A DNA stretch of 64,000 nucleotides, from assembly GCF_037126435.1 (NCBI RefSeq), contig NZ_CP147020.1, positions 829,001 through 893,000 on the forward strand. Reading direction: 5' to 3'. Shown here piece by piece: positions 22,030 to 56,982 of the stretch. The DNA comes from Bernardetia sp. ABR2-2B. Its GTDB lineage: Bacteria; Bacteroidota; Bacteroidia; Cytophagales; Bernardetiaceae. Within the stretch, counting starts at the first letter, position 1. Every line of letters begins with the position of its first letter. The position numbers were made by a program, and so were the translations under genes. The notes under the pieces are model-generated. The model was not told the origin of the DNA. It searched no databases and saw only the letters and a program-made list of their open reading frames with translations.

Positions 22030-25000
22030 ATGCAAAATAAATCCACAAAAAAAATAATTTTCTTACTCTTAATAGTAAGTTTTATTTTCCCCAACTATTC
22101 TAAAGCTCAAAACAAAACAGGCTGGGAGTTTATTGGGCAAAATGACCATCAAAAAGCACGTCAAGCATTCAAACAAACACTAGATAAAGATAGCACTGAT
22201 GCAGAAGCTAATAAAGGAATGATTTTTCTTTCCGAAGTAGAAGGCGATACACAAGGCTATTATTTGCACCTCAATAGACTAATGCGTCATCATTGGGACG
22301 AAAATTATTATGATGTTTTTAAAAGACAAATCAATATTTCTTATACCGACTTAAAAAAAAGAATGTTTGATAAAAATGGAAATCAAAAAATGTCTTCTCG
22401 TTTTTATGTAAGTCCTGCTCTTTTCGAAGCCTATAAAGACTTTAGAAGAAGAGAGTTTGAGAAAAGCAAAACCTCTTTTTCAAAGGTGCATAATAATTTA
22501 TATTGGGCAACAATAAACGGTTTTCCAAACATAAATGGCTATGGTTATACGGTAGAATATCCTGTGGAAAAGGAAGCATTCAATCCAAATGGAAATTATA
22601 AAATCCTTACAGACGAAATACTTACTTGGGAAACATTGCCTTATTTTCAATATGATGGAGATATTTATCTTGATAATACAGAAGGTGTTCATTACGCAAA
22701 TACATTTTTCAAAATAGATAAAGAACAAGATATTGACTTTCGTATTACTCGCTCTTATCCTATCAAAATTTGGTTGGATGGTAAAGAAATCTTTGCTTCT
22801 CCAAAAACAATTTCAGCACATTACGATGCAGAGCGCATTTCATTAAAATTACCTGCTGGAAATCATAGAATTTTGATTAAATATGCAGTAGGAAGATATT
22901 TTAAGGGTGGTTCGGGTTCTTCTGAACTAGACTTTGATGGAATGAAAAGTATCAATTACAATTATGAGGAAGAAGAGGAAAGCGATAAAAAGAAAAAAAG
23001 CACTATCGAAAGAATAGAAGAAAATGAAGATAACTATTCTCCTTATTATCAAAGAAACCTTTTGATTCGCCTGACAGACAAAAATGGTGTTGCAATTCCG
23101 TTACAAGCCTATAAAGACCCTGTTACCTATTCACTGGCTTCAAACTTTGAAAACTCTCAAACAACACGTTTAGAGACCTTAGAGTATTTCAAAAATTTGG
23201 TAGAAAAAAATAATGATAAAAATATAAATTCTTTTTTTAATTATTATATGCTCGTTCAATCTCATCTGTACTATTCAAGAGGAGAAGAATTAGAAGAGTT
23301 TTTTGCTAAAAAAGTAGAACGAAATCCGAACTCTGTTTATTTCAAATATTTAGCTGCCAAAGTGTATAATGAAAACAATAAAACAGAAAAGAGTTTTGAT
23401 TTAATAGGAACATTTGACCAACAAAAAACACCTATTTTTACGCTTCTTTATAAAGACTTAAAGGAAATTGATGCAGAGAATCAGAGTGAAGAATACGAAG
23501 AAAAATTAGACCAACTAGACAAAATTAGCCGTTCGAATTTTGATGTAATTCAAAGAAAATTGCGTTTTTATGATAAAAAAGGACGTAAGGATGAGCGAAT
23601 TGCATACGCTAAAAAGATGGCAAAAGAATACCCTTTTTATTCTCAAAGCCTGAAAAAATATATTGATGATAAAGATAATCGTCCAGAAGATTATTATCAA
23701 AATCAGCAAAAAGACAAAAAAGACGACGACAAAGCTAAAGAGAAAGACTACAAAAAAGCTCTCAAAAAATACTTTGATGTAGGAACTTACAAAAAGCTGA
23801 TTGCGCTCTACAAAAAGGATAAGGAAGTAGAAAAAGTATTAGAGCTTTATGATGAAATGATTGTTGTTAAGCCAAATGAAAGTTGGATTTTATATCAAAA
23901 AGCAAATTACTTGTACTCAAAAGAACGTTATAACGAAGCGATGGCAACTATCAAACAAGCCATTCCGATTGACCCAAACTCAAGTGGGATTTATGAAATG
24001 ATAGGTGATATTCATAGCGATAAAGGCGACAAAACAACTGCTCTTTCATATTATAAAAAAGCTAAAAAATTATCTTCTAGCCAAAAATCATACGAATTAG
24101 ATAATAAAATTGAGAAGATTGAAGGAGAAAAACAGTATAAAAACAAATTCGAAACGCCTTCCTTTGATGAGTACAAAACAAATTATGAAAAACTATCAAA
24201 AACTGATGCTTTCAAAAAAGAATATAAAGATGCCGAATCAATTATTTTAGGTTACAATCGTGATGTAATTTGGAATGATACAGCGCAATCAACCTATTTT
24301 TATAGTATGGTTATGATAAAAATACTGACAGAGTCTGGGGCAAAACTTTGGACACAATCTAATTTTGACCTTTTAGGAAGAGTAACTAGTGCAAAAGTAA
24401 TTCGTGAAAATGGTACAGAAACACGTCCAGACGTACAGGGTTCATTCATTATCTTCAAAAACTTAAAAGTAGGGGATATTATTCAAGTAGAGGGAATGGC
24501 AAGTTGGAATACTGTTTCAGAACTTGGAAATAATTTTGGAATTAGTAATTATATTCCTTTTCCTGCTCCTATTTTATCAGCTAAATTAGAATTTTTGATT
24601 CCCAAAAACAGAAAGCTTTTTTATACAAGTCATAAACTAAACGGAAAGCCAAAAATAAATAATCGTGAAGATGGTTTGGTTTCTTATCGTTGGGATTATG
24701 AAAATATTCCGATTCCGATTGTAGAGAATGCAATGGTCGATGATTTGGAATATTATCCTGTTTTGAGAGTTTCGACGACAGAAGACTGGGGAATTATTGT
24801 AGATTGGTACAAAGCCAAGACCTATCAAAAGCTAGAATCTAATTATATTATTGATGATATTTTGAAAGACATTATTAAGGATGGAATGACTAAAAAACAG
24901 CAAGTAGAAACTATCTTTAATTATATTTCTCAAAACATAAATTACTCTTACGCAAACCTTTTGCAATCGGGTTATATCCCAAAAGATAGCGACCTTACAT

Positions 25001-25965
25001 GTTCTTCCAAAATTGGAGACTGCAAAGATGTAGCTACAATTATGATTGCGATGCTTAGAAAAGTTGGTATCGAATCGTATTATGTTTTGGTCAAAGTCAA
25101 TGAAAATACACAGCCATTTATGCCTCTTGAAATGGAATTTAATCACGCTATTGTGGCATATTATTTAGACGGTAAAATCAACTATTCTGACCCAACAACT
25201 GATTTTTATCCCTATTATTCACTCAACGAAGGCGATACAGAGGCGTGGGCATTGCTCATAAAAGATGGAGAGAATAAAGCTTTTCGTCTGCCAGCCAATC
25301 AAACAGATTCCACAAAAACATTCACTCAATATGATGTAAATGCAGTTTTAGATGAATTTAATACGTTAGATTTGGAAATCAAGACAACCTATACAGGTCT
25401 TGTAGCTGGTAGATGGCGTTCGACGATGGAATTAGAATCAAAGGATAATTTACCAAATACAATTATAGGAAGTTTGGGAAGTAGTGCCTTCAGAAATCTT
25501 GAACTAGATGATTATAATTTTGATAAAGTAGAAAATATTTCCACTTCTCTTGAAGCGAATTATAAACTTCATGCTAGAGAATTTACTGATGATGTAACAG
25601 GAATTTATTTTATGCGTTTGCCCTTTGTCAAGACGACTAAAGCTGACGCTGCGATTTATGGAAGTGAGCGAACTAATGCAATGGATATAAAAACTTTTAC
25701 ATTTGCACAACCTCATATTCAGCGCATTAATGTAAAAATGAATGAAAACTTTGCTATTAAAAAATTACCAAAAAACGTAAATTATGATACAAAATTTGGA
25801 ACATATACGCTAAAATTAAAACAAACAGCAGAAGGATTATATATTGAGCGTTTTGTTCATTTCAAACAAACTCGTATTGAGCCATCTGAATTTATAGCTT
25901 TTAAAGAGTTTTATCTTCAACTTTTGAAATATGATAATTTGAAAGTGCTTTTGCAACAGAAATAA
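22030..25965 (+). CDS. Exported TPR / DUF3857 / transglutaminase-like protein
   Basis: A 1311-residue protein with a signal peptide (KKIIFLLLIVSFIFPNYSKA). It has an N-terminal region with a beta-rich segment (about 170-300), TPR repeats at about 575-690, a DUF3857-type domain (about 740-900) and a transglutaminase-like domain with a plausible triad: Cys998 in KIGDCKDVATIM, His1039 in EFNHAIVAYY and Asp1054 in YSDPTTD. The last 120 residues resemble the DUF3858-type C-terminal beta domain. These large periplasmic proteins are common in Bacteroidota, with unknown substrate. The gene starts 16 nt after a heptamer array and ends before a strong hairpin. Confidence 0.85.
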   Translation: MQNKSTKKIIFLLLIVSFIFPNYSKAQNKTGWEFIGQNDHQKARQAFKQTLDKDSTDAEANKGMIFLSEVEGDTQGYYLHLNRLMRHHWDENYYDVFKRQINISYTDLKKRMFDKNGNQKMSSRFYVSPALFEAYKDFRRREFEKSKTSFSKVHNNLYWATINGFPNINGYGYTVEYPVEKEAFNPNGNYKILTDEILTWETLPYFQYDGDIYLDNTEGVHYANTFFKIDKEQDIDFRITRSYPIKIWLDGKEIFASPKTISAHYDAERISLKLPAGNHRILIKYAVGRYFKGGSGSSELDFDGMKSINYNYEEEEESDKKKKSTIERIEENEDNYSPYYQRNLLIRLTDKNGVAIPLQAYKDPVTYSLASNFENSQTTRLETLEYFKNLVEKNNDKNINSFFNYYMLVQSHLYYSRGEELEEFFAKKVERNPNSVYFKYLAAKVYNENNKTEKSFDLIGTFDQQKTPIFTLLYKDLKEIDAENQSEEYEEKLDQLDKISRSNFDVIQRKLRFYDKKGRKDERIAYAKKMAKEYPFYSQSLKKYIDDKDNRPEDYYQNQQKDKKDDDKAKEKDYKKALKKYFDVGTYKKLIALYKKDKEVEKVLELYDEMIVVKPNESWILYQKANYLYSKERYNEAMATIKQAIPIDPNSSGIYEMIGDIHSDKGDKTTALSYYKKAKKLSSSQKSYELDNKIEKIEGEKQYKNKFETPSFDEYKTNYEKLSKTDAFKKEYKDAESIILGYNRDVIWNDTAQSTYFYSMVMIKILTESGAKLWTQSNFDLLGRVTSAKVIRENGTETRPDVQGSFIIFKNLKVGDIIQVEGMASWNTVSELGNNFGISNYIPFPAPILSAKLEFLIPKNRKLFYTSHKLNGKPKINNREDGLVSYRWDYENIPIPIVENAMVDDLEYYPVLRVSTTEDWGIIVDWYKAKTYQKLESNYIIDDILKDIIKDGMTKKQQVETIFNYISQNINYSYANLLQSGYIPKDSDLTCSSKIGDCKDVATIMIAMLRKVGIESYYVLVKVNENTQPFMPLEMEFNHAIVAYYLDGKINYSDPTTDFYPYYSLNEGDTEAWALLIKDGENKAFRLPANQTDSTKTFTQYDVNAVLDEFNTLDLEIKTTYTGLVAGRWRSTMELESKDNLPNTIIGSLGSSAFRNLELDDYNFDKVENISTSLEANYKLHAREFTDDVTGIYFMRLPFVKTTKADAAIYGSERTNAMDIKTFTFAQPHIQRINVKMNENFAIKKLPKNVNYDTKFGTYTLKLKQTAEGLYIERFVHFKQTRIEPSEFIAFKEFYLQLLKYDNLKVLLQQK

Positions 25966-26026: not shown

Positions 26027-26097
26027 TATGTTTATTTTATAAGAAAATCAATACACAAAAATATCTCTATTTAATAAAAATAATTGTATTTTTGAGA

Positions 26098-28770
26098 ATG
26101 CAAAAAAATATTTCTTCTACCTATTCTTCGCAAATTATTGAATCTATTATTTCTTCTTTTTCGCCTTATCAAAAGCGTTTTTTTCAAGATATTCTAACGC
26201 TTCATTATGGAGATACAGAAATAACAAATAACTCTACAAACAGCACATTAAGTAACTACAAAAAAACTAACTTTGGTAGAGAAAAATGGGTTTATTTTAC
26301 TTCTTATATTTCGCCTTATTCAATGCGAGATGTTTTATTATATTCAAAAATCAAGGGCTTTGATACTATTACATTGAGAATAATTGCGATGATAGCCTAT
26401 TTTCAGAAGAATGAAGAAGGGCAAAAAGATTTTTTTATAGAAATAATAAATACTATTCAAGATTCAGTTTTTTTCTTTGAATTTTATGTAGAATCTTTTG
26501 AAAAGCCATTTCCAAATTCTCTCAAAAAAGCAATTCGATTCACTTTAGAAAATAATACAAAAAAAGACTTTGATACTTTTTTTAAAGACTTTCCCCATAA
26601 GAAAATACTTTTAGCTGATTGCCTTAATATTTGTCGCCCAAGATTAAATAATGAAATTGATACAGCGTTTTTAAAAGAAAATTTTAAGGCAAAAATCCCT
26701 ATAAAAAAGTGGAAACAAGAGATTACACAGGCTCACTTAAAAAAAGGTTCATATCAAGAAAAGCGCAATAGGCAAAGTCAGCTTTGGAAAGATTTCATCG
26801 AAACAGACAGACTTTCTAGCCAAGAAATGCTAGAAGAATTGCCTTTGATTTTCAAAAACTCACCAAAAACTGTCAAACTTGCCTTAGAAAAATTAAAACA
26901 TAAATTAAGTAAAAGTATAGAATTGGCTAATAAACTTTCGCCTTTTCAGATTCTTGAAAGCTATAATCAAATCCATAAAGCATACGTAAAGCGAGTTCAT
27001 AGAATTTTGCATACACAAGAGTTTGTAGAAAGTATTGTTGCAGAGCAAGAAGAAGAACTACACCGTTTGCAGGTAGCTTCAAAACGTATTTTCAAGAAAT
27101 GGGAAGGTGAACTCTTTTTTGGTGGTTATCATCGTCTGATGCTTATTTTTCACGAATTAGACGAACAACAACGTCTTTTTTTTACGCAAATAAATAAGCC
27201 TAATCTACAACAAGCTCCGAAGCAGATGGCGCAGATTATGCAAAGAAGCGTACAAATTGAGAATCTACTTTCTACTTTTGAGGAAAATTATTTGAGCGAA
27301 CTTCCTCCTTCTTTGGTTCAGCAAGAGGGTTGGAGAAAAATAGAACGTCAGGCACTTAAAAATCTACGCCGTAAAGTTGGCTTTTTTGGAGAGTTGGCAG
27401 ATGTTTTTTACTCTGAAAAAATAGAACAAATCAAGCGTCTTTATTTTTATTCGCCAGAAGAAATACAAGATGTTCTGAAAGATATTGCTATTCATTTAGA
27501 AGAACTAGAAGATACAATTTTACACAGGATTAGGGGCAGAATTGCAGCTTTCAAAGATATTCAAGAGCTTTATTTAGAACAGGCACGCCCACCGATGCAA
27601 GCTGCCTTACAAGAAATGTTTGAGGTGGCAAAAGGCGTAAGTAAACATCTGACAGAGCAATTAGAAGAAACTCAAAAACAGCAAAAAGAGCATTTAGAAA
27701 GTAATTCAGATTCAGATAATGATAATTCTTCTAATCTGTTAGGAGAAGTTATTGAAAAGAATTTGAGTAAAAAACAAAAGCAAAAAGTAAAAAAAGGAGT
27801 TAGTTTAGAAGATTTTCAATCTATCTATGAAGATAAAGTTCGTCAAACGTATTGGGACAAAACAAAGGAAAATCAGAAGGAAGAATTATCAGTTTTGAGA
27901 AATGAGCTAAGAAATCAGTTAGAAGATGCCCGAAAAACTATTCAGAATATTATTCAAGTAACTAAAGAAGATATTGAAAATACGCTTTCGAAAGCACGAA
28001 AACAATTAGCTTCTATTTATCAACAAACAGCACAAGAAGAGCGAGAAATGATTCCTTTTTTCAGAGAAATTAGAGGGAAAGTAGAACGTATTTTTGAACG
28101 TAAACCTTTTGAAGAAGATTTTTTGACGCTATATCCAGATCTTACAAAAGCAAATGATATTCAGAAAGGATTATTAAAAGAAATTTTACCTCATACTATT
28201 CAGAATATTTCAACACTCAATAGCAAAAAAGATAATAAACGATTTTCCAAAACACTTATAATTTTAGATGAAGCTCTCACAACAGAAGCACAATCATTAG
28301 AAAAAGCAAGTTGGTTGAGTGCCTTTATTTTTCAAGGTTCTAAAAAGAATCTAACTACTTCACAAGACTTAATTAACCTAAAAATATTGAGTGAAGATGC
28401 TTTAAATACATATTATACACAAAACCAAAAAGATACAGCAGCATTTCAACACCGTTTGCAAGATGCTATGATGAATTATGCTACTTCTGAAAAGGGCAAT
28501 TTATCGGTGGCTCTTCGTCGTCTTATTCAGGAAAAAGAATCATATTCAAGAATTATTGTCTTGAGTAAATGGACAGAAAACCAACCTCCTTTTCCCTTCA
28601 AATTATTGAAAGAATATCGCCAAAAACATCGCATTTCGCCTTGTGTATTTTTAATAAACCTTCAACCTAACCTTTCGCCACAGCTTCGAATGCGTAGAAA
28701 TGGTGTTTTTGCTGTGCAAGGAGTTTATGAAAACTTGGTAGATTGGATTTTAGAAATGGAATGTTTGTAG
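26098..28770 (+). CDS. Ro60/TROVE-like protein with coiled-coil insertion and degenerate vWA-like C-terminus
   Basis: An 890-residue cytoplasmic protein. ATG 26098 is preferred to TTG 26092. Residues about 60-295 follow the TROVE (Ro60/Rsr) order: a helical repeat segment (RDVLLYSKIKGFDTITLRII), an LKKAIRFTLENN helix, the segment KILLADCLNICRPR, then KKWKQEITQAHLKKGS with an LWKDFIE element, and LSPFQILESYNQI before the domain end. Residues about 300-710 are long charged helices, probably coiled coil. The C-terminal part (about 715-890) resembles the vWA domain of Ro60: SYSRIIVLSKW, then LKEYRQKHRISPCVFLINLQ and NGVFAVQGVYENLVDWI. The MIDAS DxSxS motif is not evident (KTLIILDEALT stands there). 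Bacterial Ro60 binds Y RNAs and helps RNA decay. The match is by eye. Confidence 0.55.
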   Translation: MQKNISSTYSSQIIESIISSFSPYQKRFFQDILTLHYGDTEITNNSTNSTLSNYKKTNFGREKWVYFTSYISPYSMRDVLLYSKIKGFDTITLRIIAMIAYFQKNEEGQKDFFIEIINTIQDSVFFFEFYVESFEKPFPNSLKKAIRFTLENNTKKDFDTFFKDFPHKKILLADCLNICRPRLNNEIDTAFLKENFKAKIPIKKWKQEITQAHLKKGSYQEKRNRQSQLWKDFIETDRLSSQEMLEELPLIFKNSPKTVKLALEKLKHKLSKSIELANKLSPFQILESYNQIHKAYVKRVHRILHTQEFVESIVAEQEEELHRLQVASKRIFKKWEGELFFGGYHRLMLIFHELDEQQRLFFTQINKPNLQQAPKQMAQIMQRSVQIENLLSTFEENYLSELPPSLVQQEGWRKIERQALKNLRRKVGFFGELADVFYSEKIEQIKRLYFYSPEEIQDVLKDIAIHLEELEDTILHRIRGRIAAFKDIQELYLEQARPPMQAALQEMFEVAKGVSKHLTEQLEETQKQQKEHLESNSDSDNDNSSNLLGEVIEKNLSKKQKQKVKKGVSLEDFQSIYEDKVRQTYWDKTKENQKEELSVLRNELRNQLEDARKTIQNIIQVTKEDIENTLSKARKQLASIYQQTAQEEREMIPFFREIRGKVERIFERKPFEEDFLTLYPDLTKANDIQKGLLKEILPHTIQNISTLNSKKDNKRFSKTLIILDEALTTEAQSLEKASWLSAFIFQGSKKNLTTSQDLINLKILSEDALNTYYTQNQKDTAAFQHRLQDAMMNYATSEKGNLSVALRRLIQEKESYSRIIVLSKWTENQPPFPFKLLKEYRQKHRISPCVFLINLQPNLSPQLRMRRNGVFAVQGVYENLVDWILEMECL

Positions 28771-28849: not shown

Positions 28850-28895
28850 GACTTTCAAATAAGATAAATCGTAAAATTTATTTTATTTGAAAGTC
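28850..28895 (-). terminator. Terminator of rpmH
   Basis: A 17-bp stem (GACTTTCAAATAAGATA against TATTTTATTTGAAAGTC, one mismatch) with a 12-nt loop. On the reverse strand it is followed by a T-run. Confidence 0.8.
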
Positions 28896-28954: not shown

Positions 28955-29110
28955 TTATTTGTGTGTACGTTCGTCAGAAACAGTAAGTTTATGGCGACCT
29001 TTTGCACGTCTAGCACGAATTACATTACGTCCTCCTACAGTTTCTGTACGTGAACGAAAACCGTGTTTGTTTTTACGCTTACGCTGTGAAGGTTGAAAAG
29101 TACGTTTCAT
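28955..29110 (-). CDS. rpmH: 50S ribosomal protein L34
   Basis: A 51-codon reverse frame from the ATG at 29110 to TAA at 28955. The protein begins [18 protein letters not shown], followed by [33 protein letters not shown], which is the complete L34 signature with the expected high Arg/Lys content and length (44-53 residues). It forms part of the 50S subunit near the 23S rRNA. It has its own promoter (29273-29303) and terminator. The usual partner rnpA is not next to it; the downstream neighbour is a convergent gene. Confidence 0.97.
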
Positions 29111-56623: not shown

Positions 56624-56656
56624 TTGAAAATCATTCCATAGAAAACACTACCTTTG
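56624..56656 (+). promoter_or_regulatory. Promoter of the cobalamin-riboswitch transcript
   Basis: TTG at 56624-56626, a 22-nt spacer and TACCTTTG at 56649-56656. The start of transcription would be near 56663, just before the aptamer. Confidence 0.55.
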
Positions 56657-56659
56657 CAA

Positions 56660-56918
56660 CTTGAAAAGGTGGTGTTTTTTCATTTAAAGAAAAAATACTG
56701 AAAAGGGAATACGGTCGCTTATTTAGCTTATTCCGTAACTGTACCCGCAACTGTGAATTTGGTTTTTTACATAATCGTAAAAAATAATAGCCTACTATCT
56801 CTACACTTAATAACTACAAGTAGGCATTGCTGCGTTTTTTATTAGAAATCTGATACTTCTAACTTCTTATTTCTAACTTCTTACTTAGTTCAATCAGTCA
56901 GGAGACCTGCCTTTTCTG
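56660..56918 (+). promoter_or_regulatory. Cobalamin (B12) riboswitch
   Basis: Core motifs in order: GGGAATACGGT (56705) paired to ATTCCG, then ACTGTACCCGCAACTGTGA (56738-56756), the conserved B12-box-like core, and CAGTCAGGAGACCTGCC (56895-56911), the 3' L5/J-P region. AAAAGG near 56664 can pair with CCTTTT at 56910-56915 as the closing P1 helix. Peripheral stems contain TAGCCTACT pairing with AGTAGGC. It is 65 nt upstream of the BtuG-like gene. B12 binding should repress expression, as in other Bacteroidota. A heptamer array lies in its variable region. Confidence 0.88.
56857..56884. repeat. Heptamer array (TTCTAAC type) inside the riboswitch
   Basis: TTCTAAC, TTCTTAT, TTCTAAC and TTCTTAC in strict 7-nt period, in a peripheral, variable part of the aptamer between the stem ending near 56825 and the conserved CAGGAGACC core. 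Confidence 0.7.
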
Positions 56919-56982
56919 TTATTGTACTTTTGGTTCGGGAAAAAACTGGGGTCATTATTTTATTTTATTCTTTTTAATTTTT

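Follow-up and report, generated by a model that had tools for sequence, protein, structure and literature searches.

A gene in the genome of the marine bacterium Bernardetia sp. ABR2-2B encodes an 890-residue protein that is best explained as a whole as a fast-diverged paralogue of bacterial Ro60, a reading that we consider reasonably probable. Ro60 is the ring-shaped RNA-binding protein known from lupus, and its bacterial forms are thought to act through Y RNAs that tether the ring to partners. The gene lies in a stretch of 64,000 nucleotides (positions 829,001 to 893,000 of contig NZ_CP147020.1, forward strand), which we refer to as the window and to which all coordinates apply unless a locus or contig is named. 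Homology to Ro60 at both ends of the protein was supported by independent routes: at the N-terminus by profile-profile alignment, and at the C-terminus by alignment and by an AlphaFold model whose input contained no TROVE sequence. These results bear out the divergent Ro60 branch proposed in a first-pass annotation of this DNA. The frame is uninterrupted over 890 amino acids, from the ATG at 26098 to the stop codon ending at 28770 on the plus strand, and its main parts are the following.

26098..28770, plus strand: gene for the 890-residue divergent TROVE/vWA protein, stop included (open frame, orthologues, purifying selection)
26278..26997, plus strand: TROVE-like part, residues 61-300 (hhalign to TROVE)
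26998..28167, plus strand: helical insert, residues ~301-690 (no TROVE match, length relative to the classical TROVE protein L068, substitution rates)
28168..28767, plus strand: Ro60-type vWA domain, residues ~691-890 (AlphaFold with Foldseek, hhalign)

HMMER found no Pfam match to TROVE (PF05731) or vWA in any of the 8 members of the family, even at an E-value of 10. The reach of HMMER can fall short of such families, and profile-profile comparison by hhalign was therefore used, with 17 classical TROVE proteins from the same phylum (Bacteroidota) as the reference; the number of effective sequences (Neff) of the query alignment was low, 1.8. Residues 79-302 were collinear with TROVE positions 77-309 (score 50.0, P = 5.7e-6), so that the TROVE-type segments do follow one another in order at the N-terminus, as had been claimed. 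The C-terminal part alone scored 32.0 (P = 0.0014), and an in silico fusion of residues 1-310 with residues 680-890 raised the score from 50.0 to 59.9 (P = 5.8e-7). The maxima over 60 column shuffles were 22.7 for the N-terminal part, 25.0 for the C-terminal part and 21.6 for both together; reversed profiles gave 13.6-15.1 (13.6 for the N-terminal part) and the middle of the same protein gave 17.4. When proteins encoded in the window and at other loci, 93 in all, were ranked blindly against TROVE, two classical TROVE proteins came out on top (1230 and 1173), ranks 3-7 were taken by exactly the five family members (42.2 to 27.7), and the other 86 proteins scored 25.3 or less. The N-terminus of the diverged homologue L008 also matched TROVE by itself (33.9, P = 8.4e-4).

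Identity to the classical TROVE proteins of the same phylum is 14-17%, and several landmarks can be recognised. LADCLNICRPR (residues 172-182) is the counterpart of the TROVE LRDALFLVHPKA motif, SPFQILESY (281-289) that of LPFRFLAAY, and the landmark Trp is kept at position 230; all 8 orthologues retain the TROVE landmarks Pro, Asp and Trp. The ring part is net basic (48 Lys and Arg versus 34 Asp and Glu), like classical TROVE rings.

To guard against bias, the C-terminal residues 674-890 (217 residues) were folded by AlphaFold with the 8 orthologues and not a single TROVE row. Classical TROVE proteins and the family had also been aligned jointly with MAFFT, but this alignment was discarded and kept out of the folding, because it placed the TROVE vWA domain onto the insert and because its use would also have been circular. 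The model reached a mean predicted local distance difference test score (pLDDT) of 53; between fragment positions 131 and 180, five blocks of ten residues scored 71-85. It showed the alternating helix/strand order typical of a vWA domain. Its Foldseek ranks 1-8 in the PDB were all Ro60/Rsr (probability 0.93-1.00, E-value 2.4e-3 to 2.1e-2, TM-score to the query 0.38-0.47), and most of the next matches were integrin I domains. Since no PDB match of this model reached an E-value of 0.001, we take the Foldseek result as supporting, not as conclusive alone. Single-sequence comparison of the vWA part gave P = 9.2e-5, and the agreement between Foldseek and sequence comparison is what would be expected from true homology. 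The C-terminal motifs named at first pass matched the terminal part of the Ro60 vWA domain in hhalign and Foldseek alike. Profile and fold comparison thus bear out the similarity seen by eye at first pass, to which HMMER is blind.

The metal-ion-dependent adhesion site (MIDAS) of this domain is degenerate, its first motif lying in the KTLIILDEALT (residues 718-728) that had been singled out from the start.

28267..28281, plus strand: degenerate MIDAS motif 1, D724-E-A726-L-T728 in place of D-x-S-x-S (hhalign column match)
28477..28485, plus strand: Y794-A-T796, equivalent to TROVE Y-S-T, with the loop-2 MIDAS Thr retained (Y794 and T796 correspond to Y398 and T400 of L068)
28564..28569, plus strand: S823-K824 where an intact MIDAS has T-D in loop 3, with loss of the Asp (hhalign alignment)

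D724, which is invariant in the family, and T796 are kept, the YAT triplet (794-796) being invariant in 8 of 8 orthologues; the two Ser of motif 1 are replaced by A726 and T728, and the loop-3 Asp by K824. Because of these replacements, the usual metal binding by the MIDAS is unlikely.

The TROVE and vWA parts were correctly described as far apart. From the Pro of SPFQIL to the MIDAS Asp there are 442 residues, compared with 50 in L068, which places about 392 extra residues at the junction of ring and vWA domain. Two long helices can be delineated in this insert.

27454..27702, plus strand: long helix A, residues 453-535 (83 residues; low-confidence model; hydrophobic period 3.66, p = 0.0005 versus shuffles)
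27703..27831, plus strand: connector, residues 536-578, a variable acidic stretch followed by the conserved basic KKQKQKVKKGVSLEDFQ (alignment)
27832..28095, plus strand: long helix B, residues 579-666 (88 residues; low-confidence model; period 3.66 beyond all 2000 shuffles)

The power of helices A and B was 11.5 and 10.8 at a period of 3.667, as against 0.3 and 0.9 at 3.5, and L008 shows the 3.66 period too, strongly in helix B and weakly in helix A. An 11/3 periodicity is the pattern of hendecad or long amphipathic helices, and with almost nil power at 3.5 a heptad coiled coil is unsupported. What had been described as a 400-residue coiled-coil insert is therefore a long charged helical region of about 390 residues (~301-690) whose two long helices lack the heptad pattern, and the coiled-coil arm is restated here as an 11/3-periodic helical insert. 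Its best Pfam resemblance, weak and sub-threshold, is to apolipoprotein A1/A4/E, a family of 11-residue amphipathic repeats.

The gene was found in 7 of the 7 Bernardetia genomes searched, that of the window included (79-91% identity for the orthologues in the six others), and is under purifying selection across all seven species sampled. The ratio of nonsynonymous to synonymous substitution rates (dN/dS) was 0.017-0.065 for the insert, compared with 0.10-0.15 in the ring part and a range of 0.07-0.23 in the vWA part; the insert value was 2.4-8 times below that of the ring part in five of six species pairs and 1.6 times below it in the most distant pair. Similarly, identity to L008 was 35-43% in the insert versus 25-26% in the ring and vWA parts. 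By both measures constraint is strongest in the insert, and this part is central to the protein's function, whatever that function is. This pattern of constraint is also what favours the main rival explanation, namely that TROVE and vWA have decayed into a scaffold that has lost RNA binding and displays a working insert, such as an amphipathic helix bundle that associates with membranes or acts as a scaffold. The loss of the MIDAS and of the TROVE RNL signature (see below), the 11/3 periodicity and the faint apolipoprotein resemblance point the same way. Yet the ring part is itself under purifying selection and net basic, the Pro, Asp and Trp landmarks are kept in the 8 orthologues and the vWA model is still Ro60-like. 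We regard such decay as possible, if on the whole unlikely.

Outside Bernardetia, one homologue with 32-33% identity was found in another genus of the same family (G008). No convincing homologue was present in three further genomes of the family or among the remainder of the 391 genomes searched in the order; weak matches to the family profile at the order level (E-value 0.01-0.06) were dropped, the frames inspected holding no TROVE-like protein. Phages, plasmids (tblastn) and viral contigs yielded no homologue, and searches of Pfam, NCBIfam and PDB sequences yielded no informative match. In genome G005, the last residues of the protein recur at the end of contig C82 (L062:4866-4964) as a further copy of 33 residues with 82% identity, which is either a gene fragment or an assembly artefact.

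The 890-residue type of protein is universal in genomes G000 (that of the window) to G006 and G008, whereas classical TROVE genes are patchy: they are present in G001, G003, G004 and G008 and absent from G000, G002, G005 and G006. As four of these relatives carry both proteins, we consider the two to be paralogues. The classical TROVE genes of G001, G003 and G008 are each accompanied by one to three unannotated RNAs that share with bacterial Y RNAs a permuted tRNA-mimic layout, the T-arm preceding the D-arm. They score under the Rfam YrlA cut-off and are positioned immediately next to TROVE.

L085:9225-9898, L082:6173-6590, L084:6426-6536, L086:10349-10462 and L090: candidate Y RNAs, often in tandem, beside classical TROVE genes (Bernardetiaceae relatives, G013)

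A pattern built from these TROVE-adjacent RNAs (TACTTCG..TTCGANTC..TAGNNCA) was searched in 11 genomes, G008 excluded. It matched in G001, G003, G004 and the more distant G013, each time near a TROVE gene, and in no TROVE-free genome among the 11, the window genome included. Y RNAs thus track classical TROVE, and the 890-residue type is retained in four genomes (G000, G002, G005 and G006) that have neither. A T4 Rnl2-type RNA ligase adjoins the classical TROVE gene and Y RNAs in G001 and G003 (L082:3527-4561 and L085:10410-11444); the L082 ligase was confirmed by Pfam and the L085 ligase was recognised from sequence similarity only. The usual RNA-repair partner in Ro60-Y RNA clusters is RtcB.

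The search for Y-RNA-like transcripts suggested at first pass came out negative: none was found near the 890-residue protein gene in the species examined, nor in the window genome by the pattern used. The best YrlA match in the window genome was rejected, as it overlaps tRNA-Leu. Lax-threshold Rfam matches near the gene were likewise rejected; they were far under the gathering scores and mostly to plant or animal microRNA models on A+T-rich DNA. These negatives bear on the possibility that the protein works in the ordinary Ro60 (Rsr) mode, that is, in Y-RNA-bound RNA quality control with an unrecognised Y RNA encoded elsewhere. The homology to Ro60 at both ends would fit, as would the presence of RtcB in the genome, though this gene is far off (C1:5.15 Mb versus 0.855 Mb). 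Against this, no Y RNA adjoins the gene, the pattern occurs only in genomes with classical TROVE, and the best YrlA match is discounted by the tRNA-Leu overlap; we find this mode improbable. Because the gene has no such neighbours and is retained by genomes that have lost both classical TROVE and Y RNAs, the protein would have a role of its own apart from the Y-RNA system, and it probably does a job other than the usual Y-RNA-linked Ro60 role.

Some observations weigh against a diverged Ro60 paralogue. The TROVE signature LLRNLRNI (LLRN(L)xNI) is not kept, and since LEELPLIFK stands in its place, RNA contacts may be lost. The full-length AlphaFold model, made with the 8 orthologues, had a mean pLDDT of 46.7 and an all-helical pattern in which no ring was seen; it is too poor to interpret, its Foldseek hits were discarded as noise, and we infer the N-terminal HEAT-type ring from homology for this reason. 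No linked RNA-repair gene (RtcB, RtcA, RNA ligase) or Y RNA was found beside the gene, and the absence of Y RNAs was assessed with one pattern and with Rfam YrlA, which is weak outside its seed. That the N-terminal part is instead an unrelated HEAT/ARM-like helical array, matching TROVE through convergence of helical patterns, would agree with the lack of HMMER matches in any member, a full-length model without a ring and the low Neff, but is highly improbable in view of the score of 50.0 (22.7 at most in 60 shuffles, 13.6 reversed), the position of the five family members right after the two classical TROVE proteins and above the 86 others of the 93, the separate match of the diverged L008 N-terminus, and a C-terminus that is independently nearer to Ro60 than to any other vWA protein.

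Among known proteins, Ro60/TROVE2 (PDB 1YVR, 1YVP, 2I91, 9NEN) is closest to the C-terminal model and has the same succession of TROVE segments and Ro60-type vWA domain; the 890-residue protein differs from it by the ~392 extra residues between the two, the broken MIDAS and the missing LLRNLRNI. Rsr of Deinococcus (PDB 2NVO, Foldseek rank 6) shares the fold family and the bacterial origin but works with Y RNA and RtcB/PNPase, whereas the 890-residue protein gene has no linked Y RNA, RtcB, RtcA or RNA ligase and a variable neighbourhood. The classical TROVE proteins of Bernardetia and other Cytophagales (L064, L068, L082, L084) are from the same lineage and have the same two-domain order; unlike the present protein, they are 505-506 residues long, have an intact DVSGSM and adjoin Y RNAs and, in two genomes, the Rnl2-type ligase. 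TEP1, a vault protein, carries a TROVE module within a larger multi-domain protein that also comprises a vWA-like domain, NACHT and WD40 repeats; the TROVE module and the vWA-like domain are common to both, and NACHT and WD40 were not detected in the 890-residue protein. Because an intact MIDAS, an association with Y RNA and a direct TROVE-vWA order are all missing, we file the protein as a diverged TROVE/vWA paralogue and not as an Rsr orthologue.

The neighbours of the gene vary by species: synteny extends to both sides only in G006 and to one side in G002, and no conserved operon partner was found among the species compared. The sole well-conserved upstream sequence in seven species is a 16-bp stretch directly 5' of the ATG, where AATTGTAYTTTTGARA (26083-26097) is nearly invariant. 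The stretch contains a match to TAnnTTTG, the -7 promoter element of Bacteroidota.

26087..26094, plus strand: TATTTTTG, matching the Bacteroidota -7 element, 3 nt before the ATG (upstream alignment; putative promoter role)
28850..28895, plus strand: terminator-like hairpin after the gene, 20 pairs
28955-29110, minus strand: rpmH (ribosomal protein L34), in the ~570-bp gap 3' of the gene and below the 80-residue minimum of the first list of open reading frames
22030-25965, plus strand: 1311-residue TPR and transglutaminase-core protein with a DUF3858-like end, just upstream of the gene
56650-56928, plus strand: cobalamin riboswitch (53.9 bits)

With the -7-like element so near the ATG, the transcript may be leaderless, and the conserved promoter-like stretch upstream and the terminator downstream suggest a monocistronic gene under a promoter of its own. 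The ~570-bp downstream gap is occupied by rpmH and the terminator, and the idea of a Y RNA there was therefore rejected. Of the relatives compared, G006 alone has the TPR/transglutaminase-core protein next to the gene.

How might a diverged Ro60 paralogue of this kind work? The N-terminal part would retain the fold of a HEAT-type ring, with the vWA domain closing it. The degenerate metal site would no longer bind a metal-dependent ligand, leaving the vWA domain mainly structural, and the ring, still net basic, would hold some RNA. The strongly conserved insert could project rigidly and serve as the docking site of a partner protein. In Deinococcus, Rsr is tethered to PNPase by Y RNA (PMC7790460). 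By analogy, the insert might perform this tethering within the protein, giving a system independent of Y RNA, and such an arm would account for the dispensability of Y RNAs in this case. We offer the tether role as conjecture, and the complete scheme, a Ro60-type ribonucleoprotein in which the ring holds RNA while the built-in arm replaces the Y-RNA tether and recruits a nuclease or another effector, so that the lineage could lose its Y RNAs, is in our estimate distinctly unlikely.

TROVE/vWA proteins exist beyond the reach of Pfam-style detection and, because such members escape these searches, the family is under-counted. Furthermore, a Ro60 derivative that is retained in genomes with no detectable Y RNAs and is best conserved in its helical insert constitutes a natural test of the need for Y RNAs among Ro60 functions.
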